Source of the DNA: Mariniblastus sp.
GTDB taxonomy: Bacteria; Planctomycetota; Planctomycetia; Pirellulales; Pirellulaceae
NCBI GenBank assembly: GCA_023300235.1
Contig: JALZWN010000082.1
Location: 1 to 41,842, forward strand
DNA length: 41,842 bases
Direction: 5' to 3'
Part shown: positions 7,847 to 41,842 of the stretch, piece after piece
Numbering within the stretch: position 1 is the first letter of the stretch
Layout of the letters: every line of letters begins with the position of its first letter
Notes under the pieces: model-generated
What the model saw: only the letters and a program-made list of their open reading frames with translations
Told to the model about the DNA's origin: nothing
Databases searched by the model: none
Made by a program: the position numbers and the translations under genes

Positions 7847-7888
7847 ATCGGATTCAAAAACCGTCGCTTCAACGGTAGTAGAGTTCAA

Positions 7889-20892: not shown

Positions 20893-20893
20893 G

Positions 20894-22048: not shown

Positions 22049-22101
22049 AACGTTTGCCGATCGCAAACGTCTCTGAATACGTTGCAAGCCTTCACCTAAT
22101 G
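22049..22101. repeat. 53-base 3'-flank repeat, copy 2
   Basis: It follows the second SGNH gene and pairs with the copy after the first. Its right end overlaps the last codons of the convergent beta-helix gene. Confidence 0.75.
22050..22070. terminator. Hairpin between convergent genes, possible bidirectional terminator
   Basis: A perfect 8-bp stem, ACGTTTGC with GCAAACGT, encloses a five-base loop and sits between the stops of the convergent SGNH and beta-helix genes. No T-run follows on either strand, so factor-independent termination is not assured. Confidence 0.35.
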
Positions 22102-23777
22102 TTGCTTGGAATCCATCCATTACTTGTAGGATTCCAATTCCAATAATCCGCGTTTTTCCAATCATGTTTTGTTCGGTCCTGCCCATCAGACAGGAAAATT
22201 CTGTCACCGGCTTGACCGGTGATTTCAGTAAACGGTGGTCCAAGTAATTTGGAACTGAAAGTACCAACGATTTGTCCATCGTCATTTCGTTTAGCGACTC
22301 CTAACTTTGGATCGAACGTCAATGTGTTATCTAAACCATGATAGGAACTTAGTGCGAGTCGGCTTTCAGGCGAGTAAGCTAGCCAAAGTTGGTACTTCGT
22401 TTTCGAATGGATGGATTTTTCAAAGCGAAAATTAACCGCGTTGAAAAATGACGCTCGAAGGGGAACTCCTTTGCGAAAGACAAACGAGTTGTTTTTTTGT
22501 GCTTCAGAGATGAAATGGACGTCGCGAATTTTTAAATGGCAATTTTCATTCTCATCGCGTAAACTGGCAAGCGACGCCGGATGGATCAAAATTGAACGTT
22601 CGATAATCATTTTGACTGGGAAATTGATATCGTTAAATAATTCGTTACTGTAAGAAGTTGGCTTCCCGATTTTGCAGTTTGAAATCAACATCGTTTGCAG
22701 CTTCGAATCAAAATTAATTCCTTGGTCCCAATGACAGTTAAGTACTTGGCAAGACATAGAAATATCGTCCTGAGTTTTTTGTAATCTCATCGCCCAACCT
22801 TTGTAGGTTTCTGGAGTAACAACCGTCACATTGTGCAGTCGCGAATGAGTTATGTTTTTGATTTTAAAAACATGATGGTTTCTAATACTCCGGACGCTGG
22901 CACCCAATAGAATCGAACAGTTTTCGATGACCAAGCTATCCAAACCTTTTTCATCATCGTCGCCTGGATCAAAATTTAAAACGACTTCTCGTAGGTTTGG
23001 AGGCAAATCCTTGTCGATGAATTCAGCGAGAAAAGTGGAGTTACGGATCGTTATCGAGCCACGTTTATTGGCTGAGTTACTGTCTAAGTTGAACAGTCGA
23101 TTGCGCCCATTTTTAGTTGGGCGATTAATTTTTGCTTCAATGTGATCGAATATCGCATTGTTTGTGACACATCGAAAGCAAGCGAATCCTGGATTAAGCG
23201 CGCTGCAACGCAGCAAAAGTGAGTTATTACCAGCAATGTAAAAACAATTGGCTAAGTGACCATCTGGTGCGTCAGCGACAGCGCAATCAGTTAATTGACA
23301 GTCATTACCAACAATACGAATCCCTTCGCCCCGCCCATTGTTTTTACCCATCAGATCAATGGCTGGTCCGTTGCCATTTACTTTTACGCCATTTAAATGA
23401 ATCCCATTGCCAGTTGCGCTTAAAACATAGTCGTAGCGTTGATTGGCGGGCGCCTTTAGCGTTACATTTTGAAATCGAATTTTGCAATGGTTGGCCGTAA
23501 CTTCGATTCCGTTGGCGATAAATTCGGCAGGATGGTCGGCCCAAACAACGCAGTGAGCATTGTCCTTCAACTCAGTTTGTAGCAAGAGTTTTAGGTTCTG
23601 TCCGATAGTTTTATTACTTCCAGTTAGCTGAAACAATCGAGTGGTCGAGTCTGACACTTGAACGTTGAGTTGTCCATAACTTAAATTAGTTACGAATAGC
23701 AGTAAAAAACTTGCTGCCAAAAATGCGGTGTTTAGAGAGGGAACCGGAATTACTTTGTTACATCGCAGAGTAAGCAT
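22092..23777 (-). CDS. Secreted right-handed beta-helix protein
   Basis: A 561-residue protein with an N-terminal signal peptide (about residues 10-36, ending LSYGQ) and a long run of short beta-strand repeats of the parallel beta-helix type, such as GNGIHLNGVKVNGNG, GEGIRIVGNDCQLTDC and NNSLLLRCSALN. Such folds occur in pectate lyases, epimerases and polysaccharide-binding proteins; no recognised catalytic set was found, so the function is open. The C-terminal part (IVGTFSSKLLGPPF, GQAGDRIFLSDGQD) looks like a separate small domain. The ATG was preferred over a TTG 42 bases upstream because it precedes the signal peptide closely. It is the last gene of the right-hand block, 50 bases after an acyltransferase gene, so a role on the same polysaccharide is likely. 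Confidence 0.72.
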   Translation of the reverse strand: MLTLRCNKVIPVPSLNTAFLAASFLLLFVTNLSYGQLNVQVSDSTTRLFQLTGSNKTIGQNLKLLLQTELKDNAHCVVWADHPAEFIANGIEVTANHCKIRFQNVTLKAPANQRYDYVLSATGNGIHLNGVKVNGNGPAIDLMGKNNGRGEGIRIVGNDCQLTDCAVADAPDGHLANCFYIAGNNSLLLRCSALNPGFACFRCVTNNAIFDHIEAKINRPTKNGRNRLFNLDSNSANKRGSITIRNSTFLAEFIDKDLPPNLREVVLNFDPGDDDEKGLDSLVIENCSILLGASVRSIRNHHVFKIKNITHSRLHNVTVVTPETYKGWAMRLQKTQDDISMSCQVLNCHWDQGINFDSKLQTMLISNCKIGKPTSYSNELFNDINFPVKMIIERSILIHPASLASLRDENENCHLKIRDVHFISEAQKNNSFVFRKGVPLRASFFNAVNFRFEKSIHSKTKYQLWLAYSPESRLALSSYHGLDNTLTFDPKLGVAKRNDDGQIVGTFSSKLLGPPFTEITGQAGDRIFLSDGQDRTKHDWKNADYWNWNPTSNGWIPSNIR

Positions 23778-23827
23778 AAATTGTTCAAAGTATCGTAAGA
23801 TTGATTGATCAAAGCGCAAATGAAAAT

Positions 23828-24388
23828 TTAAGTGCTTCTTAATGGTCTTGGCCGGTTGACCGCCCCAGAGACAGTTGGCCCTTCGAGCATCTGGTTATGT
23901 CGTTCGCGATCTTCTTTGGATTTGAATCGTTCTCGAAGCTTTTTGTTTGGCACGCCACAGTGGATTTCGTAGGCAGGAACATCCTTGGTAACTACGGTCC
24001 CAGCAGCGATAATGGCACCGCGGCCAATCGTGACTCCAGACATGATTGTGGTGTTGATTCCGACCCAAACGTCATCCTCGATAACAGTTAGCTTTTGTTC
24101 AGGTGCTCCGGAGAAAATTGTCGGAGTCCCAGGTTTATCAAATATGTGGTTGTCACCAGTGATTGCAACACATGGTCCCAAAAGTACGTATCTACCAATT
24201 TTGGTTTGCGACGAGATTACACAGTTCATATTGATGAAGCTGTGCTCACCGACTTCAATGTCGTTGATGATATATGATTTACCAGAAAAATAAGCGGTTT
24301 TATGAACGTTTCGATAGCCATATTGGAGACGTTTTATAGCCATCAAGAATCGCCTGCGTAGAATTCGCAATCTTAAGCCGATAGACAT
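23828..24388 (-). CDS. Hexapeptide-repeat acyltransferase
   Basis: This is a left-handed beta-helix acetyltransferase of the WcaF/maltose-acetyltransferase type, about 186 residues. The hexapeptide pattern runs through NDIEVGEHSFINMNCVIS and VWVGINTTIMSGVTIGRGA, and the likely catalytic histidine lies in TGDNHIFD. The end, GVPNKKL, resembles the GxPAKxI tail of the family. It probably O-acetylates a sugar of the repeat unit in the cytoplasm using acetyl-CoA. The ATG chosen is internal to a frame that could start at a GTG 27 bases upstream; neither has a clear ribosome site. It is the second acyltransferase in the block. Confidence 0.82.
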   Translation of the reverse strand: MSIGLRLRILRRRFLMAIKRLQYGYRNVHKTAYFSGKSYIINDIEVGEHSFINMNCVISSQTKIGRYVLLGPCVAITGDNHIFDKPGTPTIFSGAPEQKLTVIEDDVWVGINTTIMSGVTIGRGAIIAAGTVVTKDVPAYEIHCGVPNKKLRERFKSKEDRERHNQMLEGPTVSGAVNRPRPLRST

Positions 24389-24446
24389 CTTAGAGTTTCT
24401 TTGGGAAGGCCGCACGGAATCTCATTTACCATGAAATGTAATGTAA

Positions 24447-25601
24447 CTAGTCGGTGAAAGCATCTGACATTTTGCTCCGAGTGGGTTCTTGCTGTCGTAT
24501 CGCGCGACGTATCTCAGAGGCTTGAATTCGCGGATTATAGAACCGATCTACGATCGCCATACATCTAGCTCTCATTAGTTCAAGATCCTGTTCAAGAAGT
24601 TTAGCAATTTTGGTCGCTAGATCCTCAGCATCACCATTTTTGAAAATGGCTCCAGAAAAATCGGGTACAACCGCCTCGACCTCTGGTCCATGGAAACTTG
24701 TTCTATCGCTTGTAACAACTGGAACTCCGTACATCATACTATGAATAACAGTCAAGCCAGCAGCGGCTGGGCAAATGGTCAACTGAGCGCACATCAGCAA
24801 GCGTCCAACGATTTCCTCATCATGACAAGATCCATAGAAATTGACTGGAAGGTCAAGGGATTGGGCAAGTTCTTTTAAATTTTCTCGATCTTCTCCATCT
24901 CCAACAATCAATATGTTAACAGGTTTTTTGAGTTGTTTGAGCTTTGCAGCTGCTTCTAACAATAGGTCGATGCGTTTGCTCCGACTGATTCTCCCTACAA
25001 GAATAAGCATCGGGTTCTCAGGGGACTCAAACAGCTCATGACGCAGCATTTTGAGTTCTTCTGGTGTCACGGATTCACGAATGGACTTCTGAGTTTCGTA
25101 ATCGAGACTGTTGTAAATCGTATAGATATTGTCATCTGCGAAACCTTGGGTGATACCGATCTCACGACCAATGTTTCCATACAATACCAATCCGTGTGGG
25201 ATTCGATAGAAGATTTTTCGGATGAACATTTTGATTCCTCTGTCTGAATCCCGCCATCCATGGGTCCAATATAGAACTGTTTTGCCTCTCAGCCGAGCGA
25301 GCACAGCGGAGATCCAAGTGGTTAAAAAATGCCAGTCACCGAGGAAGATGATTGTTTCGATGTCTTTGTTAAAAGCGAGCGAGATTACTTTTCGTTGAAG
25401 AAGGAATCCGCCTGGCAACCTCGTCCCCTTGGCTTCGACGAAGTCGCCGCCGTCTTTTGGACGCCAAACAGGAACCCCGGGCATTAAACGATTGACCGAG
25501 TCACCATAAAATATGTAGCTGTCGTCTTCATGAGTATCTAAATACTCAAGAATTGGTCGTCTATAGGTGGCAAAGAAATGGTAAACAATCGCGACTTTCA
25601 T
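24447..25601 (-). CDS. Family 4 glycosyltransferase
   Basis: A GT-B fold enzyme of 384 residues. The N-terminal half starts VAIVYHFFATYRRPI; the C-terminal half has ILVGRISRSKRIDLLLEA, VGDGEDRENLKELAQSL and a GLTVIHSMMYGVPVV segment in place of the typical EX7E motif, so the first acidic residue of that motif is not conserved. YFRRP-type openings occur in transferases acting on terminal positions of polysaccharides. The ATG was chosen over a GTG 36 bases upstream because GAGAGA lies close before it and the first strand then begins directly. Donor and acceptor are unknown. It follows the amidotransferase gene by 68 bases. Confidence 0.83.
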   Translation of the reverse strand: MKVAIVYHFFATYRRPILEYLDTHEDDSYIFYGDSVNRLMPGVPVWRPKDGGDFVEAKGTRLPGGFLLQRKVISLAFNKDIETIIFLGDWHFLTTWISAVLARLRGKTVLYWTHGWRDSDRGIKMFIRKIFYRIPHGLVLYGNIGREIGITQGFADDNIYTIYNSLDYETQKSIRESVTPEELKMLRHELFESPENPMLILVGRISRSKRIDLLLEAAAKLKQLKKPVNILIVGDGEDRENLKELAQSLDLPVNFYGSCHDEEIVGRLLMCAQLTICPAAAGLTVIHSMMYGVPVVTSDRTSFHGPEVEAVVPDFSGAIFKNGDAEDLATKIAKLLEQDLELMRARCMAIVDRFYNPRIQASEIRRAIRQQEPTRSKMSDAFTD

Positions 25602-25669
25602 ACACTCTATCTCTCTGCCGGAAATTGGAATCGACACCGGTCAAATGAAATTTTCTAGAACGGGCAGGT

Positions 25670-27523
25670 TCAGTCGATAAAGGCCTGAAACCAAAGTTCG
25701 GTCATTATCCAGCGGTAGATTTGACTGCGGAAATCCTTTTGCCCAGCTTGATGAGCCTTTAACAAAGACGCAATTCGATTGGAGTCGAACAATTGCCTTG
25801 CGCGGCACTCTTTGGAGAACAATACAGGCTTCACGATCGTATCCATGTGCTCTTGGAACCAAACTCCAACAGGAGAATCGAATCCACGTTTGGATCTTTC
25901 CCAGGTAATTTTGCGTGGAACATACTTGTCAACACTTTTTCTCAGTACGAATTTGGACCAACCACTATCAGACTTAAACTGCCCCGGCATTTTACTAGCA
26001 AGTTCGACAATCCGGTAATCCATAAATGGGAGCCTAGACTCAATTGAATGTGCCATTGGTATGGCATCACTGTATTGAAGTAGATTTACAAGACCATTTT
26101 CGTGGGACACTCTTAGATCGCGATTTAAACGGCCTTTTTCTTGGGTAGCTTTGCGAATTACAAAAGCGTCAGCATTGTGTTGGTAGAGTTCATTGATGTA
26201 GGCTCCTTCATCACCACGATAACGTCTGTAAGTCCTGTGGAGTTGTGGCACGGTGGTGCGTAACAAGTGCATTGCAAAAGTGGTTGGGCGATAACCGTAT
26301 GCACCAGTCAATACGGATCGACACCGAGCCAATGCTGATCGAAACCGACACTGCGTTAGGTCATCTAATAACGCGGGCCAAGTGGTAGCCGTCGAATAGC
26401 CAGCAAGGAGTTCGTCTGCACCCTGCCCTTCAAGAATAACCTTGACGTCCTTTTTTGCCTCTTCCATAATCTTCCAATAGGGCAGAATCGGCACTGCGGC
26501 ATGAGGTGCTTCAAGATGAACGACGGACTCGCGCATGGTTGGCAATAAGTCTTCCGGCCCAATTGGCACAGGAATAAATTCCATCTTGTTTTTATGCGCA
26601 ACCAGCTTTGCCGTTTCGGACTCGTCGCTGCGATAATTGGCATGGTCGTAAGTTGCGGTGTAAGTTCTCAAACCACTATGTCCGCACGAATTTGACAGAC
26701 ACACAATTGCTGAAGAATCCAAGCCGCCGGAAAGCGTAAATCCAACGGGCACGTCGGACCGGAGGCGTAATTTGACTGCATCCTTCAACAAAAACTCGAA
26801 TTCTTCGACGACTTGATCAAAGTTGCTATGCTCTGAATGATCTTGGCTGTTCGGATAGTCCCAATATCGAGATATTGAGATTTCACCATTTTCGATGATC
26901 AAATTGTGGGCCGGCAATAAACGATGAATTCCGGCAAAGCAAGTGTCAGGATTCTGACCACCAATGCTTGCTCGAAGTAGTAAGGAGATAGCTGCAAAAT
27001 TTGGCTGTTTAAATCGGGAATCAGCGGCCAGAATAGCTTTCGCTTCGGATGCAAAATAAAGAAACGAATCAGTTTTGGCATATAAAAAAGGCTTGATGCC
27101 GAATCGGTCTCTTGAACAAAAAACGCGTTTTTTGGCTGGATCTAAAATAGCGAACGCCCACATTCCATTAAGACGGTGGACACATTTGTCTTCCCACTGG
27201 CGGTAGGCTGCGAGCAATACCTCGGTGTCAGAGTTAGTTCTAAATTGGTGGCCTAAATGCTCAAGCTCTTCTCTAAGCTCAATGTAGTTGAAAATCTCAC
27301 CGTTAAAACAAAGGACTTGCCCATTGGCTTCAAAGGGTTGGTCCGAAATTGACGAGGTATCAATGATTGAAAGTCGAGCATGACCGAGACCACCTAAGCT
27401 AGGATGAACATGCGTTCCCTTAGCATCGGGGCCGCGGTGATTCATCGAAGCAACCATTTTATCAAGTAAAGCTTTGGGTGGCTGATGGTCTCGCAAAGAA
27501 ATGATGCCAGCTATTCCACACAT
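25670..27523 (-). CDS. asnB: Asparagine-synthase-like glutamine amidotransferase
   Basis: This 617-residue enzyme has an N-terminal class II glutaminase domain with the nucleophile Cys2 (MCGIAG), RLSIID and NGEIFNY, and a synthase domain with the pyrophosphate loop SGGLDSS at residues 265-271. It belongs to the AsnB family, but its place inside a polysaccharide block suggests that it amidates a uronic acid rather than aspartate. Precedents are WbpS-type proteins of O-antigen loci and the amidotransferases that accompany exosortase/EPS loci. It overlaps the preceding glycosyltransferase by 13 bases. A second, housekeeping asparagine synthase would be expected elsewhere if this reading is right. 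The symbol denotes the family. Confidence 0.88.
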   Translation of the reverse strand: MCGIAGIISLRDHQPPKALLDKMVASMNHRGPDAKGTHVHPSLGGLGHARLSIIDTSSISDQPFEANGQVLCFNGEIFNYIELREELEHLGHQFRTNSDTEVLLAAYRQWEDKCVHRLNGMWAFAILDPAKKRVFCSRDRFGIKPFLYAKTDSFLYFASEAKAILAADSRFKQPNFAAISLLLRASIGGQNPDTCFAGIHRLLPAHNLIIENGEISISRYWDYPNSQDHSEHSNFDQVVEEFEFLLKDAVKLRLRSDVPVGFTLSGGLDSSAIVCLSNSCGHSGLRTYTATYDHANYRSDESETAKLVAHKNKMEFIPVPIGPEDLLPTMRESVVHLEAPHAAVPILPYWKIMEEAKKDVKVILEGQGADELLAGYSTATTWPALLDDLTQCRFRSALARCRSVLTGAYGYRPTTFAMHLLRTTVPQLHRTYRRYRGDEGAYINELYQHNADAFVIRKATQEKGRLNRDLRVSHENGLVNLLQYSDAIPMAHSIESRLPFMDYRIVELASKMPGQFKSDSGWSKFVLRKSVDKYVPRKITWERSKRGFDSPVGVWFQEHMDTIVKPVLFSKECRARQLFDSNRIASLLKAHQAGQKDFRSQIYRWIMTELWFQAFID

Positions 27524-28779
27524 GTGTCTAATCCACTTCTTGATGTAACAGTAGACAGGTCAGTTACCCAGTCCCATTCGCATAATTTAGGATCAGGTTC
27601 CAATTCGAGTTTACTGCGTAGAACTTTCGTCCAGGTTGCACAGAAATTTTCAACCGAATGAAACTTGACGAAACGTCTAAGTTTTTCTGACGGCGTAAAA
27701 CTGGTCGATTTTTGTAAAGCGACCGGAATACACTCTGAGAATTTTTTGATGTTCGTCGTATCGCAGACGAATCCAGCATCAAACTGGTCAACTGTTTTAG
27801 CAAGCCATCCACAATTATTGACCAAAACAGGTTTTGATTCGGCGACGGCTCGCAATAACACCCCTGATGACTGATACGCACGCAAATACGGCAGACAAAC
27901 TAAATCCATCGCCTGGACTGCCCAATCGATTTCGTCAACAGATAGGAATCGGTTTAACATTAAGAGTCGATTGGATTCAATTTCATCTTGGAAATTATCA
28001 GAAATCCATTCAGCAAGCCCGTCTTTAAATGGTCCAGCCAATAGCAGTCGGTCATCATCAGCAAGCTGATTTTTGGCAGCAATAAACGACTGCACTAAGT
28101 TGTCGCAACCTTTGATTTTTTGAATCCATCCGGTCATGCCGATGTATCTGCCGGACGTTGGAAGTCCAAGTAATTTTCTTGCTGCTTCCTTCGCTTTCAC
28201 AGGTGCGGCGTCGACGGGATCAGGCATCAAACGGACACTCTTGCAATGGTGTTTCTGCAGATACTGAACCTGATATGGATCCAAATGAAACGTAGTGGTC
28301 CAAGGAGCCATGCGGATAAAGCTTCGAGACACGAATGTCTTTAGTGGTCGCTGAGCATTGGTATATCCAAACCGGCCACCGAGCACTAAAGCCTCCGTTT
28401 GTTTCATTTTTTCTTTTAGAAATGGGGTAAAAGCAAGTTTTGGCGAGAAACGGCAGCACTGTGTTAGACCGCCAGCGCTTGGAACATAGGAATGAAATGG
28501 GTCAACGCTTTTCAAGGCCTGTTGAAATTGCGTTAAGTTGTTGAAGCCATTTCGCAAGGGAGATTGATGAAAATCCAGATCATCAACGACGTATACTTTC
28601 AATTTATCGTTAAAATCACTCAGAAATGCGGCGAATTCTTCCGATTCGGTGGCGGATTGTGTTGTTGCAAGCCATGGTTCAACTCGGTCGATTTTTGATA
28701 AACACCGAACCAGATGCGCTACGAATTCAAACCGGTGGCCATGATGCAGCGGTTCGAAGATCAAGATTTTTATAGCCAT
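27511..28779 (-). CDS. Family 4 glycosyltransferase
   Basis: A 422-residue GT-B type transferase. It opens with KILIFEPLHHGHRFEFVAHL, with GHR as a typical nucleotide-sugar loop, and the C-terminal half has IGMTGWIQKIKGCDNLVQSF, LLLAGPFKDG, VCLPYLRAYQSSGVLLRAVA and SKPVLVNNCGW. The YQSSGVLLRA segment with ESKPVL is a divergent form of the GT4 C-terminal motif. The last 25 residues are polar and not family-like. It starts 7 bases after the polymerase stop and overlaps the amidotransferase gene. Substrate unknown. Confidence 0.78.
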   Translation of the reverse strand: MAIKILIFEPLHHGHRFEFVAHLVRCLSKIDRVEPWLATTQSATESEEFAAFLSDFNDKLKVYVVDDLDFHQSPLRNGFNNLTQFQQALKSVDPFHSYVPSAGGLTQCCRFSPKLAFTPFLKEKMKQTEALVLGGRFGYTNAQRPLKTFVSRSFIRMAPWTTTFHLDPYQVQYLQKHHCKSVRLMPDPVDAAPVKAKEAARKLLGLPTSGRYIGMTGWIQKIKGCDNLVQSFIAAKNQLADDDRLLLAGPFKDGLAEWISDNFQDEIESNRLLMLNRFLSVDEIDWAVQAMDLVCLPYLRAYQSSGVLLRAVAESKPVLVNNCGWLAKTVDQFDAGFVCDTTNIKKFSECIPVALQKSTSFTPSEKLRRFVKFHSVENFCATWTKVLRSKLELEPDPKLCEWDWVTDLSTVTSRSGLDTCVE

Positions 28780-28786
28780 TTGGGTA

Positions 28787-30088
28787 CTATTGATATTGTG
28801 CCCGATATTGCATTAACGATCTGGCTTTTTTGTTTGATCTATCGTAATCGCGGCAAAGGAATTCTAAAGTGATGGCGAACAGAAAAAGATTTTGCTCAAA
28901 AGGTAGCGTGCCTTGTTTGCAAGAGAGCAGAAATTCGGAAAAGAAGAGAGCCGAAATAACTACGAGCGTATTTCGCTTAAGTGCATTTGCATCGCTAAAA
29001 AACTTTTTTTCTTTGGAAACGATTACTTTCAGTAATTTGACGGTTGGAATTCCTAAAATCAGTAAAAATAAAATACCACCGATTAAACCTTCCTCACAGA
29101 AAACCTCAACCGTTGTGAAGTGAATATAGAACCCCACCACATCGTACGATTCGCCCGCACCTAACCCTGTGATCCAAAATATAGGATTTTCATTAAATAA
29201 AGTCGAGATCATTTCGCTACTGGCCCAGAGTCTACCTTGGTAGGCATTTTCAATATGCTGACTATCCCACCGTTGCGTGGAAGTGTATGGAAGAATCAGG
29301 TAGATGCATACAACTAAAGCGACTAATGTTAGTGCTCCAGCGACGATAGATCGACCAGATACCTGTCCACGATTGATAGGTATGAATACGAGAATCGTCG
29401 CAACAATCGCAACCGTTTGCCCACGTGATCCGGTTTTGAGAGTCAATAACAAGCCTGTGCCCACAAGTAGCCATCTCAGGATGAGCCAGTAAGGTTTTTT
29501 TGGAAAATTGATAATTCCAGCAATAATTGCAACGTAACTGCCGATGCTCGCCAGTGCTAGAACTGAGCTAACGGCTTGTACGTTGGAACTAGCCAGCACT
29601 ACGCCACGTGAATCCCATTGTGCCAAGATTAACAGTCCGAGGCACAAGATGGTTGCCATGACCAGTGTAGCGATTAATGCTTTGCGAGCTTGATCAATAC
29701 TGCGAATCAAGGCTGATCCGAAAAAAGTGATGCCCAATAAATAGGGTGCGTTTTTTACCCAGCCATCGTATCCACGATTTCCATGGTTGCCAGATAGCCA
29801 AAAAAATGTGGAGAATCCATACAGTAAGAGAACTGCTGCAAAGTAGTAGCTCTGGGGTGGCATAATCAGCTTACCTTTGGCAAAAGCAAGACCAAAAGCC
29901 GAACCACATATAATCAAAACGGTGTAATTCACCAACCGGCCATTGGAGACGAAAAATGAGGATTGCGTTTGTAAAAACTGCTCGAGCGCGAACACTACAA
30001 GCGCTAAAGCGATCACAAGGTGCGGCTTCCAAATTGCGCAGTAACTAAAATAGGCGACTATAGTTGCAAAGACTGCTAAAGCTAAAAT
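28787..30088 (-). CDS. O-antigen polymerase/ligase-type membrane protein (Wzy/WaaL), non-ATG start
   Basis: This is an integral membrane protein with about ten to twelve helices and the Wzy_C/WaaL signature near TLKTGSRGQTVAIV. It probably polymerises flipped repeat units at the periplasmic face; ligase activity cannot be excluded. The first accepted start codon is a GTG at 30016, but the frame stays open upstream and encodes another membrane helix (ILALAVFATIVAYFSYCAIW) expected for this family. The start proposed here is ATT, preceded by GGAG at a spacing of 6 bases, giving 433 residues; a CTG 12 bases further up is a second option. No in-frame ATG exists up to the stop at 30107-30109. It is the only polymerase-like gene in the window. 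Confidence 0.75.
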   Translation of the reverse strand: MLALAVFATIVAYFSYCAIWKPHLVIALALVVFALEQFLQTQSSFFVSNGRLVNYTVLIICGSAFGLAFAKGKLIMPPQSYYFAAVLLLYGFSTFFWLSGNHGNRGYDGWVKNAPYLLGITFFGSALIRSIDQARKALIATLVMATILCLGLLILAQWDSRGVVLASSNVQAVSSVLALASIGSYVAIIAGIINFPKKPYWLILRWLLVGTGLLLTLKTGSRGQTVAIVATILVFIPINRGQVSGRSIVAGALTLVALVVCIYLILPYTSTQRWDSQHIENAYQGRLWASSEMISTLFNENPIFWITGLGAGESYDVVGFYIHFTTVEVFCEEGLIGGILFLLILGIPTVKLLKVIVSKEKKFFSDANALKRNTLVVISALFFSEFLLSCKQGTLPFEQNLFLFAITLEFLCRDYDRSNKKARSLMQYRAQYQ

Positions 30089-30158
30089 CTTTCGCTCCAG
30101 TAAACGTTATGAATTATCGAATCAAATTTAGGAGAAACGAACACGAAAAGTAATACCA

Positions 30159-31930: not shown

Positions 31931-32130
31931 TTTTTTGGCTTAAAGTATGTACAGAATATTTGTTGCGGGAATTTTTCCTGCAGTAGAAAGTAATTCGTTG
32001 ACGGCTTATTGGGCAATGCAACAAGTGGATCAAACTTCTTCTTATCAAGGCCGGCGATCAATAAGCTCAGGATTTTGGGAGCACCACTTAGCCCAAATCC
32101 GGGATTGATATAGAGGATTTTTTGTTTCAT
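31927..32130 (-). pseudogene. Truncated family 4 glycosyltransferase (N-terminal stump)
   Basis: This 67-residue frame matches only the first strand, glycine loop and second strand of the two paralogous transferases: KILYINPGFGLSGAPKILS aligns with the LYFHH...GGAP(R/K)SLS openings, and FDPLVALPNK with their VVLPE/VVMPK strands. It then stops after a lysine run, losing about 320 residues of a normal enzyme. The DNA after the stop is already the next gene, so the remainder is gone rather than frameshifted. ATGA overlaps occur at both ends, and the ribosome-passing frame has been kept intact. A functional small protein is possible but less likely than a deletion remnant. Confidence 0.8.
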
Positions 32131-33950: not shown

Positions 33951-33968
33951 TTTGTTTCTCACCTCTTC

Positions 33969-34712: not shown

Positions 34713-34808
34713 TTGGTTGACACTTTTTGCTTATTGAAAATTTCAGTTGCACGAATGAGTTAGACGTTCAATTTTAGACGCTAAATCTCAATTCCCAACA
34801 GTTTTTGT

Positions 34809-36329
34809 CTATTTAAAAACCTGTAAGCTTTTGGCAATTCCGTAAACATCACTTCGCACAGACGGAGTCAACAAAACACAGATTGTGCCGAACCCCAAAT
34901 ACAAACCGGAATTCAGTAAAATTTGGGTCCATGCCCCACTCGGTTGATTTACGAACGCATTGGCAATCATCGCCGCAGCCAGTGCGATGGCGACGATGGC
35001 GATAGGCTTGTAAACACATATTAAAACGTCTCTCGACGGAATAGGAGTTGGTCTGCTGGCATAGATAATTGAGAGGGGTTTGTTAAACACAATCGCTGCT
35101 GAAACAGCCCATGCGACACCGGTCACGCCGAATGGTAAGCCGATCCCAATAGCCAACAGGACCACGCTCGTTTGGAAAATTGACCATTTAAGCTGCTTGT
35201 CTACATGGCCATAGCTCAAGTAAAGCCATCCACTCACGGTGTTTGTTCCAGCGGTCATGCATGCTAGGCTCAAAGCATAAAAGATCGGTACGATTTCAAG
35301 CCAATTTTCCCCCAGGAACAAAAAAACTAAGTTATCAATGTTCAAGACAGCGAAGCCAACGAGAATGGTTTGGAAATATGCTAACGGAGTTAGGCACGTC
35401 AAAAACACCTGCCGATATTTTTTGGCATCATCGCGGACACGCGAAAGTGCGGGAACCACTACGTTTGTCAGGGGGCCATTTAATTTACTGGCTGGCATCA
35501 TCATTAGACTGTATGTTCGAGCGTACAGGCCTAAAGGGCCAGCGCCCCAAAAATATCCAAGGAGTGCATTGTCTGCGTTTCTCGCAAAGTAGTTGACAAA
35601 CTGAAATCCGGTGACGCGACTGCCAAAACTGAGCATTTCCCGGACACCAGAACCGCGTCGAGGTCGTCCTGGAATCCAAGGACAAACAACCCACATGCCG
35701 ATGACTATGATCAACTGCGATGTCGCAGACATCGCAATCAACGCCCAGTATTTCCCACCAAGATAGGCAATTACGACCGAGATGATGGCGGCGATCAAGG
35801 TCGCTACTAGAGAAACGAAGGTGAGCTTGCCATGCTCCATGCGGCGGGCCAGCAAAGCGCGGTGCTGCAAACCCAATGCACTCACAACAAATAGACTTGA
35901 TAACGCCAAATTGATCGGCATGAGTCGCGGTTCATTGTATATCCAGACTAGTATTGGCGTGATAGCCGCAACGCAAAGGGCTATTAATGTAGCGATAGCT
36001 AAGTTAATCCAAAACAGAGTGGAAACCTGTTCGTGGTTGATATCCTTTTTTTGAATTACTGCTCGTGAAAGCCCCAAGTCCAAAAAGATTCTTGCAAAAC
36101 CAGTTAGCACCGTAACCATTGCGACCAAACCAAAATCTTCACCGGTCAACTGCCGTGTCACTAATATCGTGCTGCTTGTCGTTACCAGAAAATTGATTGC
36201 CGTGGCGCCAAGCGTGTAAGCTCCGCCCTTTGCTGTTTTCTTTCCTATCTTGCCCTGAAGATCATCCGTTCCAAAGAGCTGGGCTGCATTGTTTCGGAAC
36301 TTCAATGACGAGAGTAACCTATTTGTCAT
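34809..36329 (-). CDS. Wzx-type lipopolysaccharide/polysaccharide flippase
   Basis: A polytopic inner-membrane protein of 506 residues with about 12-14 helices. It would flip undecaprenyl-linked repeat units. The WzxC/Polysacc_synt_3 style is seen in TRQLTGEDFGLVAMVTVL, DLGLSRAVIQKKDINHEQVS, FGSRVTGFQFVNYFARNADN and GAGPLGLYARTYSLMMMP. A soluble N-terminal tail of about 30 residues precedes the first helix. It overlaps the preceding sulfotransferase by 11 bases. A second flippase of a different subfamily starts the visible part of this block, so there may be two export routes or two polymers. Confidence 0.88.
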   Translation of the reverse strand: MTNRLLSSLKFRNNAAQLFGTDDLQGKIGKKTAKGGAYTLGATAINFLVTTSSTILVTRQLTGEDFGLVAMVTVLTGFARIFLDLGLSRAVIQKKDINHEQVSTLFWINLAIATLIALCVAAITPILVWIYNEPRLMPINLALSSLFVVSALGLQHRALLARRMEHGKLTFVSLVATLIAAIISVVIAYLGGKYWALIAMSATSQLIIVIGMWVVCPWIPGRPRRGSGVREMLSFGSRVTGFQFVNYFARNADNALLGYFWGAGPLGLYARTYSLMMMPASKLNGPLTNVVVPALSRVRDDAKKYRQVFLTCLTPLAYFQTILVGFAVLNIDNLVFLFLGENWLEIVPIFYALSLACMTAGTNTVSGWLYLSYGHVDKQLKWSIFQTSVVLLAIGIGLPFGVTGVAWAVSAAIVFNKPLSIIYASRPTPIPSRDVLICVYKPIAIVAIALAAAMIANAFVNQPSGAWTQILLNSGLYLGFGTICVLLTPSVRSDVYGIAKSLQVFK

Positions 36330-37266
36330 TAGTTAATTTCGTTCGGTAGCCAATGCCAGTAGATACTTGTTTACCGTTACGGTCCAGTTTCGAACAAATC
36401 AATTGTCCGTTGGACATGATGAGTTCATAACTAGCATTTTTGCTCGCAGGCCAAACAATGATTCCAGCAGACGTTTTTTTAAATTCAAATTTATGATTCT
36501 TGCTGTCAGCCGCAGTTGAACTCGCCAGTCGCGAACTGAGAATCAGGTGGTCTTGGCTTAGATGCACGCCCTCCCAAACCCAACCACTTTGCCATTCGAT
36601 CTTCCAAGCGTAGTTCGTTAATCGAAACGTTATTGTTTTTGATTCAGACAGCGTGGATTCAATCGGTTCAATTCGATTTTCCACGGTGACTTTCGGTAAG
36701 CCCTTCAGGTCACCTACAACCTGTCTGTAATGCTTTAGCGAGATTGCTTGGTAACCACTTAGCTTTTTATCCTGTGACAGCTCCCACCAGCGGTCGGCGA
36801 TTTGTAGACGTTGTTCTGGTGTGGATTTCTTTCGTGACAACTCGTCTTGGGCAAGTTTTTGCAGTGCGCTCTCGGGGCCCTTTGCCAAACTTCCGATGCG
36901 CTGTTTGATTGAGTACGCAACGTCCCGTCCATTCCTGAGGATAATGATAATTTTTGCGTCGGAAATCCAATTGAGTATTTTATCAATGTGCTGAATGGGT
37001 TTGGGAGTCTTCTCGAACCATCGTTTTTTCCCGTTCGCAACGGTTTGTTTATCAAAACCCGAAACTGTTTTTCTAAACTCTCGAACGTCGGATTCTAGGG
37101 CCACTCGACTTTCGCCAGGAACTGCATAAATCCGCGAGTGGGAACCCAGAATAGCGCGCAGCAATGAAGTGCCACTGTGGCCGCAACCCACGATAAAAGC
37201 AGGGCCTTTGTCGATTGCAATTCGCCTGACAAATTTATTCCATAAATAGCGGTAGTAGTAAGACAA
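36319..37266 (-). CDS. Sulfotransferase-like protein with distinct C-terminal beta-rich domain
   Basis: The first 190 of 315 residues are a sulfotransferase domain: 5'-phosphosulfate loop IVGCGHSGTSLLRAIL (25-40), KTPKPIQHIDKILNW, and 3'-phosphate site IIIILRNGRDVAYSIKQR (RNGRD at 111-115). The C-terminal 115 residues (TITFRLTNYAWKIEWQSGW, AGIIVWPASKNASYEL, RNGKQVSTGIGYRTKL) read as a small all-beta domain I do not recognise, in place of the usual YEDL-type ending. The start is TTG; there is no ATG in frame for a long stretch, and the frame is open 14 further codons upstream. Acceptor and the role of the extra domain are unknown. Confidence 0.7.
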   Translation of the reverse strand: MSYYYRYLWNKFVRRIAIDKGPAFIVGCGHSGTSLLRAILGSHSRIYAVPGESRVALESDVREFRKTVSGFDKQTVANGKKRWFEKTPKPIQHIDKILNWISDAKIIIILRNGRDVAYSIKQRIGSLAKGPESALQKLAQDELSRKKSTPEQRLQIADRWWELSQDKKLSGYQAISLKHYRQVVGDLKGLPKVTVENRIEPIESTLSESKTITFRLTNYAWKIEWQSGWVWEGVHLSQDHLILSSRLASSTAADSKNHKFEFKKTSAGIIVWPASKNASYELIMSNGQLICSKLDRNGKQVSTGIGYRTKLTNDK

Positions 37267-37328
37267 GCTTTTAATTTCACATACTGTTGGGAATGAAGGT
37301 TCTATATGTTAGTCGTCTAGTGCAGAAA

Positions 37329-37772
37329 TCAACAATTTAATTGCCGATGCCCTAGTGACTGAAGAACACCGACACGATTGCATACTGATTGGGACATTGT
37401 TGGTAGCAGAAAGTCCAAGCCGGTTTTTAGTGCCATGCCATCGCCGGGCGGAACCGCAACGGCATCGGGTTGGCACTGCTTAATCTGCTGGGCCAGCCAA
37501 CGCCTGCTTTCACAGACATCTGCGAAGACGCTTGTTTGAGGTTCTGTTTCAAAGAACTGAAAACTGACTTGATCGGAAAAATGGTCGTTTAAGATTAGTT
37601 TGTCAGCGATCTGCTGGGAAAGCCCAACAATCACTTCATTATCTGAAAATGTTTTCGCTGCGAGTCCGGTGTAGGGCATTCGGTGACCATCCGGGATCGA
37701 GGCGAAGTTTTTGTAACTAACATTGTTGGGGAATTGACTGATCCAAACATCGGACAGATTTAACAATTTCAA
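37329..37772 (-). CDS. Unknown protein, possibly N-terminal part of a glycosyltransferase
   Basis: I do not recognise this 147-residue product. It starts at TTG with KLLNLSDVWISQFPNN, a strand-like opening reminiscent of GT-B enzymes, and later has CQPDAVAVPPGDGMALKTG, which resembles the CxPDVVxxPSGD step before the donor domain. The final residues (LGHRQLNC) look random, and the length is a third of a normal transferase, so it may be a broken gene. The 60 bases after its stop carry no continuing homology. The frame is also open upstream for 20 codons without ATG. It lies between a glycosyltransferase gene and a sulfotransferase gene. Confidence 0.5.
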   Translation of the reverse strand: MKLLNLSDVWISQFPNNVSYKNFASIPDGHRMPYTGLAAKTFSDNEVIVGLSQQIADKLILNDHFSDQVSFQFFETEPQTSVFADVCESRRWLAQQIKQCQPDAVAVPPGDGMALKTGLDFLLPTMSQSVCNRVGVLQSLGHRQLNC

Positions 37773-37810
37773 AAGTGCTGACTTTAGAAATATATAAAGC
37801 CTGTCGTAGA

Positions 37811-38986
37811 CTACTTATCTTCGAGGACCTTGGAATAAAAATCATTGATTTTTGTTTTGTTCACGGCTAGTGAAAAATTTTGGTTGGCGAACTTTAAAGC
37901 AGCTTTACCCATCTGCATTGTCTTTTGTCGATCGGATAATTGTTTAATCGCTTCAATGATCGTTTCGGGCTGCTCATATTGGAAAATTAGTCCCGATTCA
38001 TTGAGGGAAATTTGTTCTCGAAGATTTGGAAGGTCGCTAACTAAAGCTGGTTTTCCGATTGAAGCTCCTTCGATCACCGCTCGCGAACTGTGTGATGTCA
38101 GAAAAGGCGCCAAGATTACATCCGAGGCTCCAAGTATGCTTCCAATATCCTTTGTAAAGTCCATTGCAAAAGCGCACTCACTTTTTTCGATTGCCGCGCG
38201 AGCACTTTCTACATAATCAATATTCGAATCATCAAAGCCGCAAAAAACGAAACGCACATTCGTAGGGAGTTTCGACTGCCACTCTGCTAGAAATTCGGCA
38301 AAATGTAAAACTCCATTTGCCGACATAATACGACAGATAGATCCAAAAACTACGGTTTCATCATCGCAATTGAATTGAGTTCTAAGTTCATTGACAGAAC
38401 TTTTTTCGATCGAGATGCCACTTGTGTCCACTGAATTGTGAATGACGATGCTTTGATTCGTTAAATCGCCAATGGTATCCAATCCACTTTGATCTATTCC
38501 GACGTACCAATCGGAGAATCGACGATTGAAAAATGCTAGGATTCGGCCCCACCAGCTTCGCAATAAGCTTTCACGAACATGAGTCACTACCGGAGCGCCG
38601 ACACCAGCAAGTTTTGCCCCCAGTCCAGCGAAGGGAAGGACGCTAGTGTTCAAGTGAACGAGATCGGGTTTGAGCTTTCGAACCCATTTACGACTGGCCA
38701 ACGCAGTAGGGATTGCCGCTAGAACCGCATATTTTCGATCTGAAAATGAATCGCACCGACAACCATTGACACCATTAAACGGACGCATATGAGTCTCTTC
38801 AATGACCTCTGCACCAGCATCTAAAAAAAGTTTTTTAACGTCATCATTGCCTTTTCGCTTAGGCATGACGACGATTGGCTCGTAGCGTGTTTTGTCTAAG
38901 CTTTGAATTAAAATCGATAGGCTTTTAGGCGCACCGCCCATACCGATTGCATGGTGGAAGTAGAGGATTTTGATTCTAAGTGACAA
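37811..38986 (-). CDS. Family 4 glycosyltransferase, paralogue of the 31-kb one
   Basis: A 391-residue GT-B transferase with the opening IKILYFHHAIGMGGAPKSLS and a C-terminal APFLTSHSSRAVIEGAS with GKPALVSDLPNLREQI. It matches the transferase near 31 kb along most of its length (both have RPFNG, LKPDLVHLN/IKPDIVHLN, HVRE-LL-WWGR-LA, N-RR, IDQSGLDTIG/IDNAGLTSIG and FASEN/FANQNFSL ends). The start is TTG; no clear ribosome site precedes it. The two act presumably on the same polymer with different linkages. Confidence 0.85.
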   Translation of the reverse strand: MSLRIKILYFHHAIGMGGAPKSLSILIQSLDKTRYEPIVVMPKRKGNDDVKKLFLDAGAEVIEETHMRPFNGVNGCRCDSFSDRKYAVLAAIPTALASRKWVRKLKPDLVHLNTSVLPFAGLGAKLAGVGAPVVTHVRESLLRSWWGRILAFFNRRFSDWYVGIDQSGLDTIGDLTNQSIVIHNSVDTSGISIEKSSVNELRTQFNCDDETVVFGSICRIMSANGVLHFAEFLAEWQSKLPTNVRFVFCGFDDSNIDYVESARAAIEKSECAFAMDFTKDIGSILGASDVILAPFLTSHSSRAVIEGASIGKPALVSDLPNLREQISLNESGLIFQYEQPETIIEAIKQLSDRQKTMQMGKAALKFANQNFSLAVNKTKINDFYSKVLEDK

Positions 38987-39009
38987 CTTACTACAACAAC
39001 TTAAGGTGA

Positions 39010-39708
39010 TTAAACAACTGGATTGAAAGAATCGCCTTTACTGAGCATCCAGAATTGGGAGTTAACTTTTTTAATCTTCGCATTTAATTCTTTTTCCCAC
39101 GACTTCGCAATTAGTTTTTCGCCATCACGATGAAGGTCATCTAGAAATATGGAGTAGTTGTTTGCAAGGTATGGTTTGACAATCAGTGCCGCTGGATATC
39201 TGGATAATGAACGGGCTTTATCATATGCCATCGGTCCATCGACAATTACTACATCGACTGCTGATTTCGATTTGACTGCTGTAATTACAGGCTGTTGGTC
39301 ATACCACTTAAGCCCCTCTTTGGCCTCTTTACAGTCAGTCAGAGGAGCAAAGACAAAGGTCACGAAATCTTCGAGGCCTTCTGCTTGTAAATGCTGTTTC
39401 ATTAAACTCAGCCAAGCTTCATTGTCGTCGACCGAAACGATAGAAGTGCTCAACTTCAAGTCTCGTACGACACGAGCTAAACAGAGTGTAGATAGGCCTG
39501 CTCCAAATTCGACAATGCTTTGTCTACGATTGATAATCACGTCGTTAATGATAGTGGCAACTGAGTGGAGGTTAATCGACGAAGCAGTAGTTGGGAAATA
39601 TTGCCCCTGTGACAAGATGTTGTCTAATAAAATGCCAGCGTGAATATCATCTAGTTTTAGCGTCTGACGCTTCAAATAATTTTGAAATCGTTTAACAAGT
39701 TTGATCAT
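39010..39708 (-). CDS. Class I SAM-dependent methyltransferase-like protein
   Basis: A 232-residue protein with motif I VEFGAGLSTLCLARVV (about residues 65-80), SIVSVDDNEAW as the acidic strand-2 motif and VDVVIVDGPMAYDKARS later. Its closest style is the methyltransferases found in polysaccharide loci that act on sugars or on phosphate esters. The sequence AAL(I)VKPYLANNYSIFLDDLH is the usual strand-5 region. The start ATG follows the upstream stop directly (TAAATG), so the two are coupled. The acceptor is unknown. Confidence 0.72.
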   Translation of the reverse strand: MIKLVKRFQNYLKRQTLKLDDIHAGILLDNILSQGQYFPTTASSINLHSVATIINDVIINRRQSIVEFGAGLSTLCLARVVRDLKLSTSIVSVDDNEAWLSLMKQHLQAEGLEDFVTFVFAPLTDCKEAKEGLKWYDQQPVITAVKSKSAVDVVIVDGPMAYDKARSLSRYPAALIVKPYLANNYSIFLDDLHRDGEKLIAKSWEKELNAKIKKVNSQFWMLSKGDSFNPVV

Positions 39709-40317
39709 TTAAGACTTCTCACCTTTGATTTTTCGAACAACCTTTTCCAAGAAGCTTTTCTTTATGTTGCCATTGGATTTATTATGTTTCATATTCCAAC
39801 ATTCCATTGCTGCGTTCAGATCTCCTTCAGCCCCAATCCAGTTCCAGAATTCTGGGAAATCATTCTTGACGTTTTCAAGCTGAACTTCCATTTGATTCTT
39901 CTTGCCTTGTAAGAAATGGCAAATGTTGGACGTTCCTACTTCGACAATCTCGGTGGCTAAGAGTCGCGTATCATTTAGATCTGGAGAAGGTTGGCGAATT
40001 AAACCATCAGCAAAAGCTTTCATGATTCCGAACCCTTTCCGTTTCACGAAACTGTCAATTACTGCTTTTGGATCTCGTTTTAAATGCACGTAATAAGCAT
40101 CGTTGCCATACTTCTGATCGAGTTTTCCTAAGTACCAAGATAACCGATTGTCAATTTCAATATGGTTTTTGGCGTAGTCCAATCTTGCATCACCCAAACG
40201 CATTGCAAGTGACTCGTGATCGGCGGTGAAATTCGTTATTGATTGACACGCTTGGGAGAATGTTACCGAACCACATCTACCAGTGCAAAGGACAAAAATA
40301 TTCATGGGCGAAATCAT
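39709..40317 (-). CDS. Small sulfotransferase-like P-loop protein
   Basis: A 202-residue protein with a 5'-phosphosulfate-like loop (LCTGRCGSVTFSQA, about residues 10-23) and a 3'-phosphate-like segment (YYVHLKRDPKAVIDSFVKR, about 75-93). The family later part is short, and the C-terminus is a basic helix (KKSFLEKVVRKIKGEKS). A sulfotransferase role is therefore probable but less secure than for the gene at 33 kb. The start ATG forms an ATGA overlap with the flippase stop; an ATG 12 bases further in is possible. It is the third sulfotransferase-like gene of the block. Confidence 0.72.
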   Translation of the reverse strand: MISPMNIFVLCTGRCGSVTFSQACQSITNFTADHESLAMRLGDARLDYAKNHIEIDNRLSWYLGKLDQKYGNDAYYVHLKRDPKAVIDSFVKRKGFGIMKAFADGLIRQPSPDLNDTRLLATEIVEVGTSNICHFLQGKKNQMEVQLENVKNDFPEFWNWIGAEGDLNAAMECWNMKHNKSNGNIKKSFLEKVVRKIKGEKS

Positions 40318-41804
40318 TTAACAAATTTTTGAACCAAATGGTTCATAGTTGTGGAAAAATTCAAAAGTCCAAATCGCGCGAAAAGGATTCCGATTGCGGC
40401 GAAGTATACGCCAGCCGAGGCAGCGACTAAAAGAAAGCTGTTGGCCCCGTCCAAAAGATAGGTAACGGTCATTAGGCAGGGAATTGGAATTAGCGAGACA
40501 CATAGTAGCTTAGCTGCGTCCGACCAGTGAACAAGCTCCCTTATGCGACAATCTAAGACGTCTGCTGCAATCCAGGCGCGGCCAAGCCCGTTAATAAAAT
40601 AGACGACCAACACTGTAGCAATTGCACAGCCTACGACGCCAATAAAGTGTAATGCAAAGTAGTTCAAAATCACGTTTGCAAATAACGCCAAAAAAGGAAT
40701 CATTGCTAGCTGAAATGTTCTACCGGCAGCTAATCCGATTGCTCCGACAGCAAATGTGCGAATAGGAAGCATCAAAAGATAGACTCGAAATACGGTAGCA
40801 CTATCTCGATATTCATTTCCCCAAATACATGCCATGAAATCTGGAGCTAGGAACAATAGGAAAACCATCGTGGGAATAAGGATTGTCCCACTCTTGATCA
40901 TCGCACGATGTAGTAACGGAAGGATTAGCATTCGCTGTTCAGGCTTGTCCAGCATCTTTTTATAATCCACTAGCAAGATGCTTGTCATCGAACCAGTGAC
41001 GATTGCAATTAAAGGGATTTCCAGTGCTCCATTGTCAAAAACAGCATATTCAGCTGTAGTTCGGTAGGCTGATACCATGGACCGATCTATGTTGCGACTC
41101 AAGGTCGTTACCATCGTGCCAACTCCTAACGGCACGCCATAAATGAGAATAGACTTCATACCCGAAATGGAAGCGCGACCATTTTTGCAAATGGAGAACA
41201 TAAGAAAAACTGCGATAAACGAAAAAACTCCAACGGCCACAACATTTGCGATAACAAGATGAGTAACGTCTTTCGTAAAAAAAATTGTTCCTATGACACA
41301 TGTGACAATAGAAATTCTAGCGCATGCTGTAAATATTGCAGCAAGGGATACTTTTTCGGATGAAATAAAGCATGGACCAGCACACCCTAAAAGTAATTGA
41401 AAAATTGCAATTGGTGCGATGATCAAAAGCGTTGATTTTAACGCTGGATTTCCCCAAGAATTCGCAATGTATTCATTCCCTCCCAGTACCATGAAAAAGA
41501 AAAAAACTAATCCAGCAGCCGTTACAATTATCAGGCTCTCAGTAAGAATCCCGCGATTGCGATCTTCGTTAGATGGCAGGAAATAGAATAGAGATTTAGA
41601 GACTCCCAACGCAAGTATTGGAGCTACCAACATAAAAACGAGTGTAGTCTGTCTGTAGGTTCCCCATTCCTCTTTTGACAATACTCTTGAGAGGACCATG
41701 CCAAGTAATATTGATCCTAAAGAAGCAATGGTTGTTCCAAGCGACAAAACAATGGTTTTGGCCGAGCGGCTATTTTTCGCCAGTGGTTTGTTACTTTCGA
41801 TCAA
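40314..41804 (-). CDS. Wzx-type oligosaccharide flippase, TTG start
   Basis: A 496-residue membrane protein with about 12-14 helices. It resembles the MATE/Polysacc_synt family: GTTIASLGSILLGMVLSRVLS followed by EEWGTYRQTTLV, VPLGVGTMVTTLSRNIDRSMV, and YAVFDNGALEIPLI. The start is a TTG that overlaps an upstream stop (TTGA); the frame remains open beyond it to the window edge, so a further upstream start is possible if that stop belongs to nothing. It is the most upstream visible gene of the block. Confidence 0.85.
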   Translation of the reverse strand: MIESNKPLAKNSRSAKTIVLSLGTTIASLGSILLGMVLSRVLSKEEWGTYRQTTLVFMLVAPILALGVSKSLFYFLPSNEDRNRGILTESLIIVTAAGLVFFFFMVLGGNEYIANSWGNPALKSTLLIIAPIAIFQLLLGCAGPCFISSEKVSLAAIFTACARISIVTCVIGTIFFTKDVTHLVIANVVAVGVFSFIAVFLMFSICKNGRASISGMKSILIYGVPLGVGTMVTTLSRNIDRSMVSAYRTTAEYAVFDNGALEIPLIAIVTGSMTSILLVDYKKMLDKPEQRMLILPLLHRAMIKSGTILIPTMVFLLFLAPDFMACIWGNEYRDSATVFRVYLLMLPIRTFAVGAIGLAAGRTFQLAMIPFLALFANVILNYFALHFIGVVGCAIATVLVVYFINGLGRAWIAADVLDCRIRELVHWSDAAKLLCVSLIPIPCLMTVTYLLDGANSFLLVAASAGVYFAAIGILFARFGLLNFSTTMNHLVQKFVK

Positions 41805-41842
41805 TTGGTCAAATCTTTTTCTTTGCTTGGCATGTAGGTGAC
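41801..41842 (-). CDS. C-terminal end of an upstream gene, cut by the window edge
   Basis: A frame entering from the right edge ends with KEKDLTN and a TGA that overlaps the flippase TTG as TTGA. Such a 4-base overlap is common in this block, so this is probably the tail of the preceding operon gene. Only 13 codons are visible, so no product can be named. Confidence 0.4.
   Translation of the reverse strand, partial: VTYMPSKEKDLTN

Follow-up and report, generated by a model that had tools for sequence, protein, structure and literature searches.

We analysed a window of 41,842 nucleotides from Mariniblastus sp. (Planctomycetota; Pirellulaceae), which is the entire contig JALZWN010000082.1 (C82) of a 4.73 Mb draft genome with 311 contigs, and focused on a block of genes at 22092-41842 that a first-pass annotation had described as one operon for a sulfated, acetylated, methylated and perhaps amidated exopolysaccharide. 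Every supported gene between 22092 and 41840 lies on the - strand, although short + strand ORFs that overlap them are also listed. When distances were taken from the listed starts of the open reading frames (ORFs), six of the 18 junctions in the block were overlaps of up to 13 bases, nine were gaps of 0-38 bases and three were wider gaps (62, 96 and 142 bases), so the picture of a one-strand block joined mostly by overlaps or short gaps held. Because the window is a whole contig, the right end of this "operon" is the contig end, and its first flippase gene may be cut there. Scans for promoters (22 sites vs 32.5 in shuffled sequences) and terminators (18 vs 21) gave fewer sites in the window than in the shuffles and were uninformative.

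In the block, we found matches above the Pfam cut-offs for two flippases, four family 4 glycosyltransferases (GT4), two hexapeptide acyltransferases, a Methyltransf_24 and an FkbM methyltransferase, an AsnB-like protein, Sulfotransfer_1 at 33126 and Sulfotransfer_3 at 36322 (Table 1). The annotated flippases, acyltransferases, methyltransferases and AsnB-like protein were thus all recovered. The polymerase-like protein scores below the Wzy_C cut-off. Four of the five glycosyltransferases that had been called intact are GT4 enzymes; the other candidates are a family 2 glycosyltransferase (GT2) that scores below its cut-off and lacks a usual start, and a further GT4 that persists only as a 67-codon remnant. 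The evidence is good for a predicted glycan cluster of the Wzx/Wzy type, whose product would be acylated, methylated and sulfated at least once.

The annotation had counted three sulfotransferases, and here ST2, ST1 and ST0 fared differently. ST2 is supported as the only intact sulfotransferase of the three by its family match, its conserved residues and its predicted fold. In an alignment of ST2 with seven of its 15 relatives, K24 and E47 are invariant in all 8 sequences, as are the MKCGT, KEPE and R.P..R..S motifs; we take these to include the 5'-phosphosulfate loop lysine, the catalytic glutamate and the 3'-phosphate motif. When we compared ST2 with PDB sequences, 13 of the 14 matches at E <= 0.01 were heparan sulfate sulfotransferases, the best being heparan sulfate 3-O-sulfotransferase (3-OST) 3A1 (E 6.9e-9). 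The predicted model (predicted local distance difference test score, pLDDT, 76.8) gave a similar result with Foldseek, in which a bacterial sulfotransferase was on top, followed by heparan sulfate N-deacetylase/N-sulfotransferase (NDST) and 3-OST (best E 7.8e-10, probability 1.00; TM-score (query) 0.49-0.63 over the first 21 rows). We ran two controls for this resemblance. A 248-residue stretch of another sulfotransferase from the same genome had no PDB match at 0.01, and a sulfotransferase of G083, which belongs to the same bacterial family, matched a bacterial sulfotransferase first and then heparan sulfate 3-OST. Because the G083 protein matches 3-OST too, part of the likeness between ST2 and the heparan sulfate enzymes is generic. 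The sulfate donor 3'-phosphoadenosine 5'-phosphosulfate (PAPS) could be supplied by two adenosine 5'-phosphosulfate (APS) kinase genes in the genome (three matches).

The relatives of ST2 lie at 15 loci in genome records, and the eight closest (39-51% identity) come from KSB1, Pseudoalteromonas, two Marinobacter, Puniceicoccaceae, Flavobacteriaceae, Salinisphaera and Ectothiorhodospiraceae records. Conserved gene order, which had been proposed as a check, was not found at these loci: besides ST2-like matches, window proteins matched only in L020 (AsnB-like 30%, TviC-like 29% and 32%) and L022 (AsnB-like 30%, Wzx 24%), all weakly. At one locus, in Puniceicoccaceae bacterium K14 (L018:4210-17479), we observed a Glyco_transf_64 protein, presumably exostosin-type, an alginate-lyase domain, an ABC (ATP-binding cassette) transporter and several sulfotransferases, two of them ST2 relatives; this locus is a better glycosaminoglycan-like candidate than the window.

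In contrast to ST2, ST1 is an in-frame chimera. Up to a join, its first part can be aligned to sulfotransferase ORFs in G418 (48%) and G609 (34%), which go on past the join with sequence that is absent from ST1. From "LAKGPES" onward, ST1 aligns instead with the C-terminal region of a protein encoded on contig C219 of the same genome (50% over 189 residues), which has no Pfam match. ST1 therefore lacks a complete sulfotransferase domain, the part after the join having been replaced; it scores above the Sulfotransfer_3 cut-off (54.7 bits vs 27) because its first part is intact, and hence it was counted in the annotation. The join is sharp in the DNA. At 36746-36888, about 143 bases are near-identical to C219 (L089), including a 65-base exact run; on the sulfotransferase side, each of two 24-base steps matches C219 at 7/24 bases, a background level, and past the ~143 bases identity drops to 50-71% per 24 bases. 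This pattern resembles that of recombination accompanied by local gene conversion, with misassembly as the alternative. If the chimera, and perhaps the glycosyltransferase remnants, were artefacts of the draft assembly, the true block would be complete, which is compatible with the other readings given here. The 311 contigs fit this idea, and a 65-base exact run can confuse some short-read assemblies; however, the tail is no copy of C219 past the near-identical stretch, no further copy of it was found in the genome, and the 48 bases before the join match C219 at background level, so we regard an artefact as unlikely.

The third protein, ST0, had no Pfam match at 0.01 and reached 12.5 bits on Sulfotransfer_3 (cut-off 27). 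Two sulfotransferase-like motifs are conserved in its three relatives, which are 42-48% identical and come from G540, a Pseudanabaena plasmid and Streptomonospora plasmid phiM2; no relative was found in viral contigs. Profile comparison with hhalign gives weak backing for ST0 as a putative sulfotransferase (E 0.0042 and probability 8% against the ST1 group; E 0.073 and probability 0.8% against the ST2 group). On both plasmids, FkbM methyltransferases and glycosyltransferases lie within a few kb of the ST0 relative. The Streptomonospora plasmid (L095) also bears a phage tail gene.

Three further parts of the block are irregular or without known family. In the GT2 frame, there is no ATG, GTG or TTG upstream of 33020, and yet the N-terminal part can be aligned to other members of GT2; the gene may use an unusual start codon or may have lost its start. 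At 33020-33125, the GT2 frame directly follows the ST2 stop (TAA ATC ATT), where a coupled non-standard start is possible. The ORF at 37329-37814 had no plasmid match at 0.01 and two weak viral-contig matches (29% over 67 residues), at which no overlapping plus-strand ORF of >= 120 aa was listed. For the orphan protein at 22092, no relatives were found in plasmids, viral contigs or 241 family genomes beyond its own, and a single-sequence fold model was too poor to use (pLDDT 34.5). One reading of the ST1 chimera, the GT4 remnant, the GT2 without a usual start and the ORF at 37329 is that the block is a decaying mosaic from which a finished polymer is no longer made. Given that open frames and above-cut-off family matches persist in four GT4 enzymes, ST2, the AsnB-like protein and the pairs of flippases, acyltransferases and methyltransferases, we consider this reading quite improbable.

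Table 1. Genes of the block (from the contig end leftward) and of the region to its left, in window positions
Feature	Positions	Strand	Evidence
Wzx flippase 2	40314..41804	-	Polysacc_synt 51.4 bits, cut-off 28.2; frame open to 41840 (contig end), may be truncated
ST0, small sulfotransferase-like protein	39709..40317	-	motif-level support
Methyltransferase, Methyltransf_24	39010..39708	-	37.3 bits, cut-off 26.3
GT4 d	37811..38986	-	Glycos_transf_1 47.3 bits, cut-off 26.4; 39% identity to GT4 at 30752
ORF, possible gene fragment	37329..37814	-	no Pfam match at E 10
ST1 chimera, sulfotransferase N-terminal part and unrelated tail	36319..37266	-	join near 36888
Wzx flippase 1	34809..36329	-	Polysacc_synt_3 257.7 bits, cut-off 23
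FkbM-family methyltransferase	33969..34712	-	Methyltransf_21 78.3 bits; TIGR01444 100.9 bits, cut-off 37.7
ST2, intact carbohydrate-type sulfotransferase	33123..33962	-	Sulfotransfer_1 65.7 bits, cut-off 22
GT2 without usual start codon	32127..33122	-	frame opens directly after ST2 stop; 24.1 bits vs cut-off 27
GT4 remnant, 67 codons	31930..32130	-	45% identity over 42 residues to GT4 at 37811
GT4 c	30752..31930	-	Glycos_transf_1 68.9 bits
Hexapeptide acyltransferase 2	30159..30755	-	Hexapep 46.5 bits, cut-off 27
Wzy-like polymerase/ligase	28787..30016	-	Wzy_C 24.8 bits, below cut-off 31.7
GT4 b	27511..28779	-	Glyco_trans_1_4 34.3 bits, cut-off 27
AsnB-like glutamine amidotransferase	25670..27523	-	TIGR01536 434.6 bits, cut-off 267.1
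GT4 a	24447..25637	-	Glycos_transf_1 97 bits
Hexapeptide acyltransferase 1	23828..24415	-	Hexapep 65.6 bits, cut-off 27
Orphan protein	22092..23819	-	no Pfam match
Two genes between left group and block	20026-22046	+	first GDSL-type; both with C-terminal dockerin-like repeats by eye
Two-domain oxidoreductase, left group	17349..19478	-	relatives in 5/27 other genus genomes
WcaI-like GT4, left group	16104..17345	-	also in G165 and G169
Heparinase II/III-like protein, left group	14219..16117	-	PF07940 133 bits, cut-off 24; PF16889 78.8 bits, cut-off 22
WecC, UDP-ManNAc dehydrogenase, left group	13011..14288	-	NF008286 530.5 bits, cut-off 459
WecB, UDP-GlcNAc 2-epimerase, left group	11804..12943	-	TIGR00236 467.4 bits, cut-off 210.15
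Second nucleotide-sugar dehydrogenase, left region	10391..11716	-	TIGR03026 413.1 bits, cut-off 189.8; no equivalog above cut-off
TviC-like NDP-sugar epimerase, left region	6857..7888	-	NF011728 331 bits, below cut-off 760
Exosortase U (XrtU)	4225..6159	-	NF033780 145.2 bits, cut-off 40; PF09721 60.8, cut-off 25.7

To the left of the block lies a group of genes for nucleotide sugars, which the annotation had joined to the block to predict a polymer of sulfated aminouronic acids with a glycosaminoglycan-like chemistry. WecB and WecC both score above curated cut-offs, which makes synthesis of UDP-linked N-acetylmannosaminuronic acid (ManNAcA) a well-supported prediction; neither the second dehydrogenase nor the TviC-like epimerase passes a specific cut-off. 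Exosortase U is accompanied in the window by PEP-CTERM-like and dockerin-like proteins, and PEP-CTERM systems are known from planctomycetes, as described in the accessible portion of PMC1569441. At the left end of the window (805-2725, - strand), we also observed solute-binding protein and permease domains of an ABC importer.

We then compared the neighbourhood of the oxidoreductase, which is found in 6/28 genus genomes (the window's included). In G165, the oxidoreductase, GT4, heparinase-like protein, WecC and WecB occur in the window order, with WecB and WecC at 84%. In G169, the same genes were found except that WecB occurs alone, plus a dehydrogenase at 36%. In G158 and G166, we found the oxidoreductase, the second dehydrogenase and XrtU, with distant WecB-like matches (30-31%), and in G161 three genes are visible on a contig of 3373 bases. 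Beside the oxidoreductase in these five genomes, there were no close relatives of the right block, only a 23% GT4 (G165) and a 27% acyltransferase (G166); in G165, another block lies next to the group, and the beginnings of its ORFs are ones that we take to resemble NeuB- and NeuC-type genes. Similar groups occur in other phyla: Sphingobium plasmid pl3 and a Parabacteroides plasmid bear the oxidoreductase (55% and 49%), WecB (53%, 50%) and WecC (54%, 48%), together with a GT4 and a gene annotated as heparinase- or alginate-lyase-family, as in the left group. The Sphingobium heparinase is known by annotation only and had no tblastn match. At these two loci, a weak acyltransferase match (32%) was the only match to the right block.

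The composition of the left group and the block also differs (G+C 44.4% vs 47.9%; third-position G+C 43.2% vs 49.6%). In the genus genomes and the two plasmids compared, aminouronic-acid genes and sulfotransferases are not one conserved unit. Because the left group is found without the block, opposite-strand genes lie between the two and their composition differs, ManNAcA cannot be assigned to a sulfated polymer from neighbourhood alone. A joint product, in which left group and block together make one sulfated, possibly amidated aminouronic polymer, would fit the curated WecB and WecC matches, the heparinase II/III-like protein, the sequence and fold likeness of ST2 to heparan sulfate 3-OST and the adjoining of the two blocks on one contig. 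However, the left group has other neighbours elsewhere, and in the window it is divided from the block by the two + strand genes at 20026-22046. In addition, ST1 is a chimera, the AsnB-like protein scores under the cut-off for uronamide formation (TIGR03108) and the 3-OST resemblance is in part generic, so a joint product seems doubtful and the glycosaminoglycan-like prediction is not established. A bolder form of the same idea, that both blocks yield a sulfated, acylated, methylated ManNAcA polymer which the heparinase-like enzyme would trim, and that this would be a Wzx/Wzy-made counterpart of sulfated glycosaminoglycans in a planctomycete-like bacterium with ST2 as a true 3-OST-like enzyme, is in our estimate rather improbable.

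The predicted amidation of a uronic acid depended on the AsnB-like protein. This protein carries the cysteine of the glutaminase site as well as the ATP-loop motif; the loop reads LEGQGADE, and E. coli AsnB has SGEGSDE where the window protein reads EGQGADE. The loop glutamate, whose functional role we assume, varies (E, D or Q) among eight aligned AsnB-like proteins. On TIGR03108, the uronamide-forming WbpS type, the window protein scores 370.3 bits, far under the cut-off of 816.9. We picked five AsnB-like proteins from search matches for comparison (two of G166, and one each from a Pseudohalocynthiibacter plasmid, a Methanosarcina plasmid and a Salinisphaera record); these score 530-595 on TIGR03108, above their TIGR01536 scores although none reaches the cut-off, whereas the order is reversed in the window protein. 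WbpS-type enzymes, placed in TIGR03108, make uronamides according to the available text of PMC7468200. Like WbpS and WbqG, the window protein is an AsnB-type enzyme in a glycan cluster, but it falls below the TIGR03108 cut-off and scores higher on TIGR01536, which sets it apart at the level of family profiles.

To see how far the block extends in related bacteria, we searched five of its genes (ST2, AsnB-like, the orphan, ST1 and ST0) across genomes, and no close relative of any of them was found in the genomes sampled. Counting the window's own genome, ST2 matches were present in 21/149 family genomes at 1e-10 (others 28-39% identity), AsnB-like matches in 15/28 genus genomes at 1e-20 (others <= 40%), ST1 in 5/392 and ST0 in 2/392 phylum genomes (the other ST0 match 49%), and the orphan in 1/241 family genomes; an AsnB-like paralog lies on contig C6 of the same genome. 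In contrast, Sulfotransfer_1 is above its cut-off in 146/149 family genomes vs 2/14 control genomes. As to the rarity claimed for such chemistry in bacteria, these genes are thus close to universal in this bacterial family, although published chemistry is scarce. In the sections available, the authors of the synechan study regarded sulfated polysaccharides as cyanobacterial only and were aware of no polysaccharide cluster with sulfotransferases in other bacteria (PMC8205485). A partial view of PMC9723792 reports sulfotransferase genes in some planctomycete draft genomes and not in most planctomycete orders, with PF13469 and a 30% identity limit. The portions available of PMC7356697, PMC9723792 and PMC4807772 describe no planctomycete sulfated-polymer cluster.

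Three clusters can be set beside the block. As far as the accessible text of PMC8205485 goes, the xss cluster for synechan in Synechocystis PCC 6803 is likewise Wzx/Wzy-type, with eight glycosyltransferases, two sulfotransferase genes and a sulfated product that was shown; it differs in having a priming transferase, a co-polymerase and regulators, none of which was found in the window. The xss product consists of rhamnose, mannose, galactose, glucose and sulfate, whereas the window cluster is known from genes alone. In Pontiella sulfatireligans, from the Planctomycetes-Verrucomicrobia-Chlamydiae (PVC) superphylum, a putative sulfated glycosaminoglycan cluster has a sulfotransferase beside eight GT2/GT4 genes, and a sulfated hexosamine-type exopolymer was measured in Pontiella strains; the parts available of PMC7356697, from whose description we made the comparison, do not mention ManNAcA genes or an exosortase. 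Within the same family, a cluster of G083 (L114) likewise has Wzx and a sub-cut-off Wzy-like protein, with four sulfotransferases above cut-off; it differs in that Poly_export and a pyruvyl transferase are present and that WecB/WecC were not matched in the 20 kb stretch. The block is a further case of a known cluster type, with a gene set that is mosaic and partly broken.

Taken together, these data suggest, at a probability of roughly 0.68, that the block at 22092-41842 is a glycan cluster of the Wzx/Wzy type that is specific to the species, was probably assembled laterally and stands apart from the adjoining ManNAcA and exosortase U group. In such a cluster, the GT4 enzymes, and probably the GT2, would build a lipid-linked repeat unit, which the FkbM and Methyltransf_24 enzymes would methylate, the two hexapeptide enzymes would acylate and ST2, as the one intact PAPS-dependent enzyme, would sulfate. 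Wzx would then flip the unit and the Wzy-like protein would polymerise it, with priming and export provided by genes elsewhere in the genome or past the contig end. Bac_transf priming transferases lie on contigs C85, C125 and C231 and Poly_export proteins on contigs C78, C151, C208, C245 and C61, and neither on C82. ST1 and one GT4 would have decayed by recombination. The sugars, the linkages and the actual addition of sulfate are less firmly predicted, and the product may be an exopolysaccharide, O-antigen-like or a protein glycan.

Several points weigh against this reading. Its support comes from sequence and predicted fold; the ST1 chimera could be an assembly error; the Wzy-like protein is sub-threshold; and no priming transferase or exporter gene was found in the block, inside which the contig ends at 41842. 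The contigs of three of the five oxidoreductase-bearing genus genomes are short (19850, 8819 and 3373 bases), so the absence of the block beside the oxidoreductase is only partly visible. In addition, WecB and WecC are both found at high identity only in G165 (1/5), with WecB alone in G169, so the ManNAcA genes are no fixed part of the group in the genus.

With these points included, our findings suggest exchange of such blocks next to a ManNAcA gene group that recurs, which means that the chemistry of the polymer is not readable from neighbouring genes alone. Sulfated bacterial surface polymers have been chemically proven in few cases, and most of their sulfating enzymes still await tests; in ST2, this locus supplies one clean candidate for such an enzyme.

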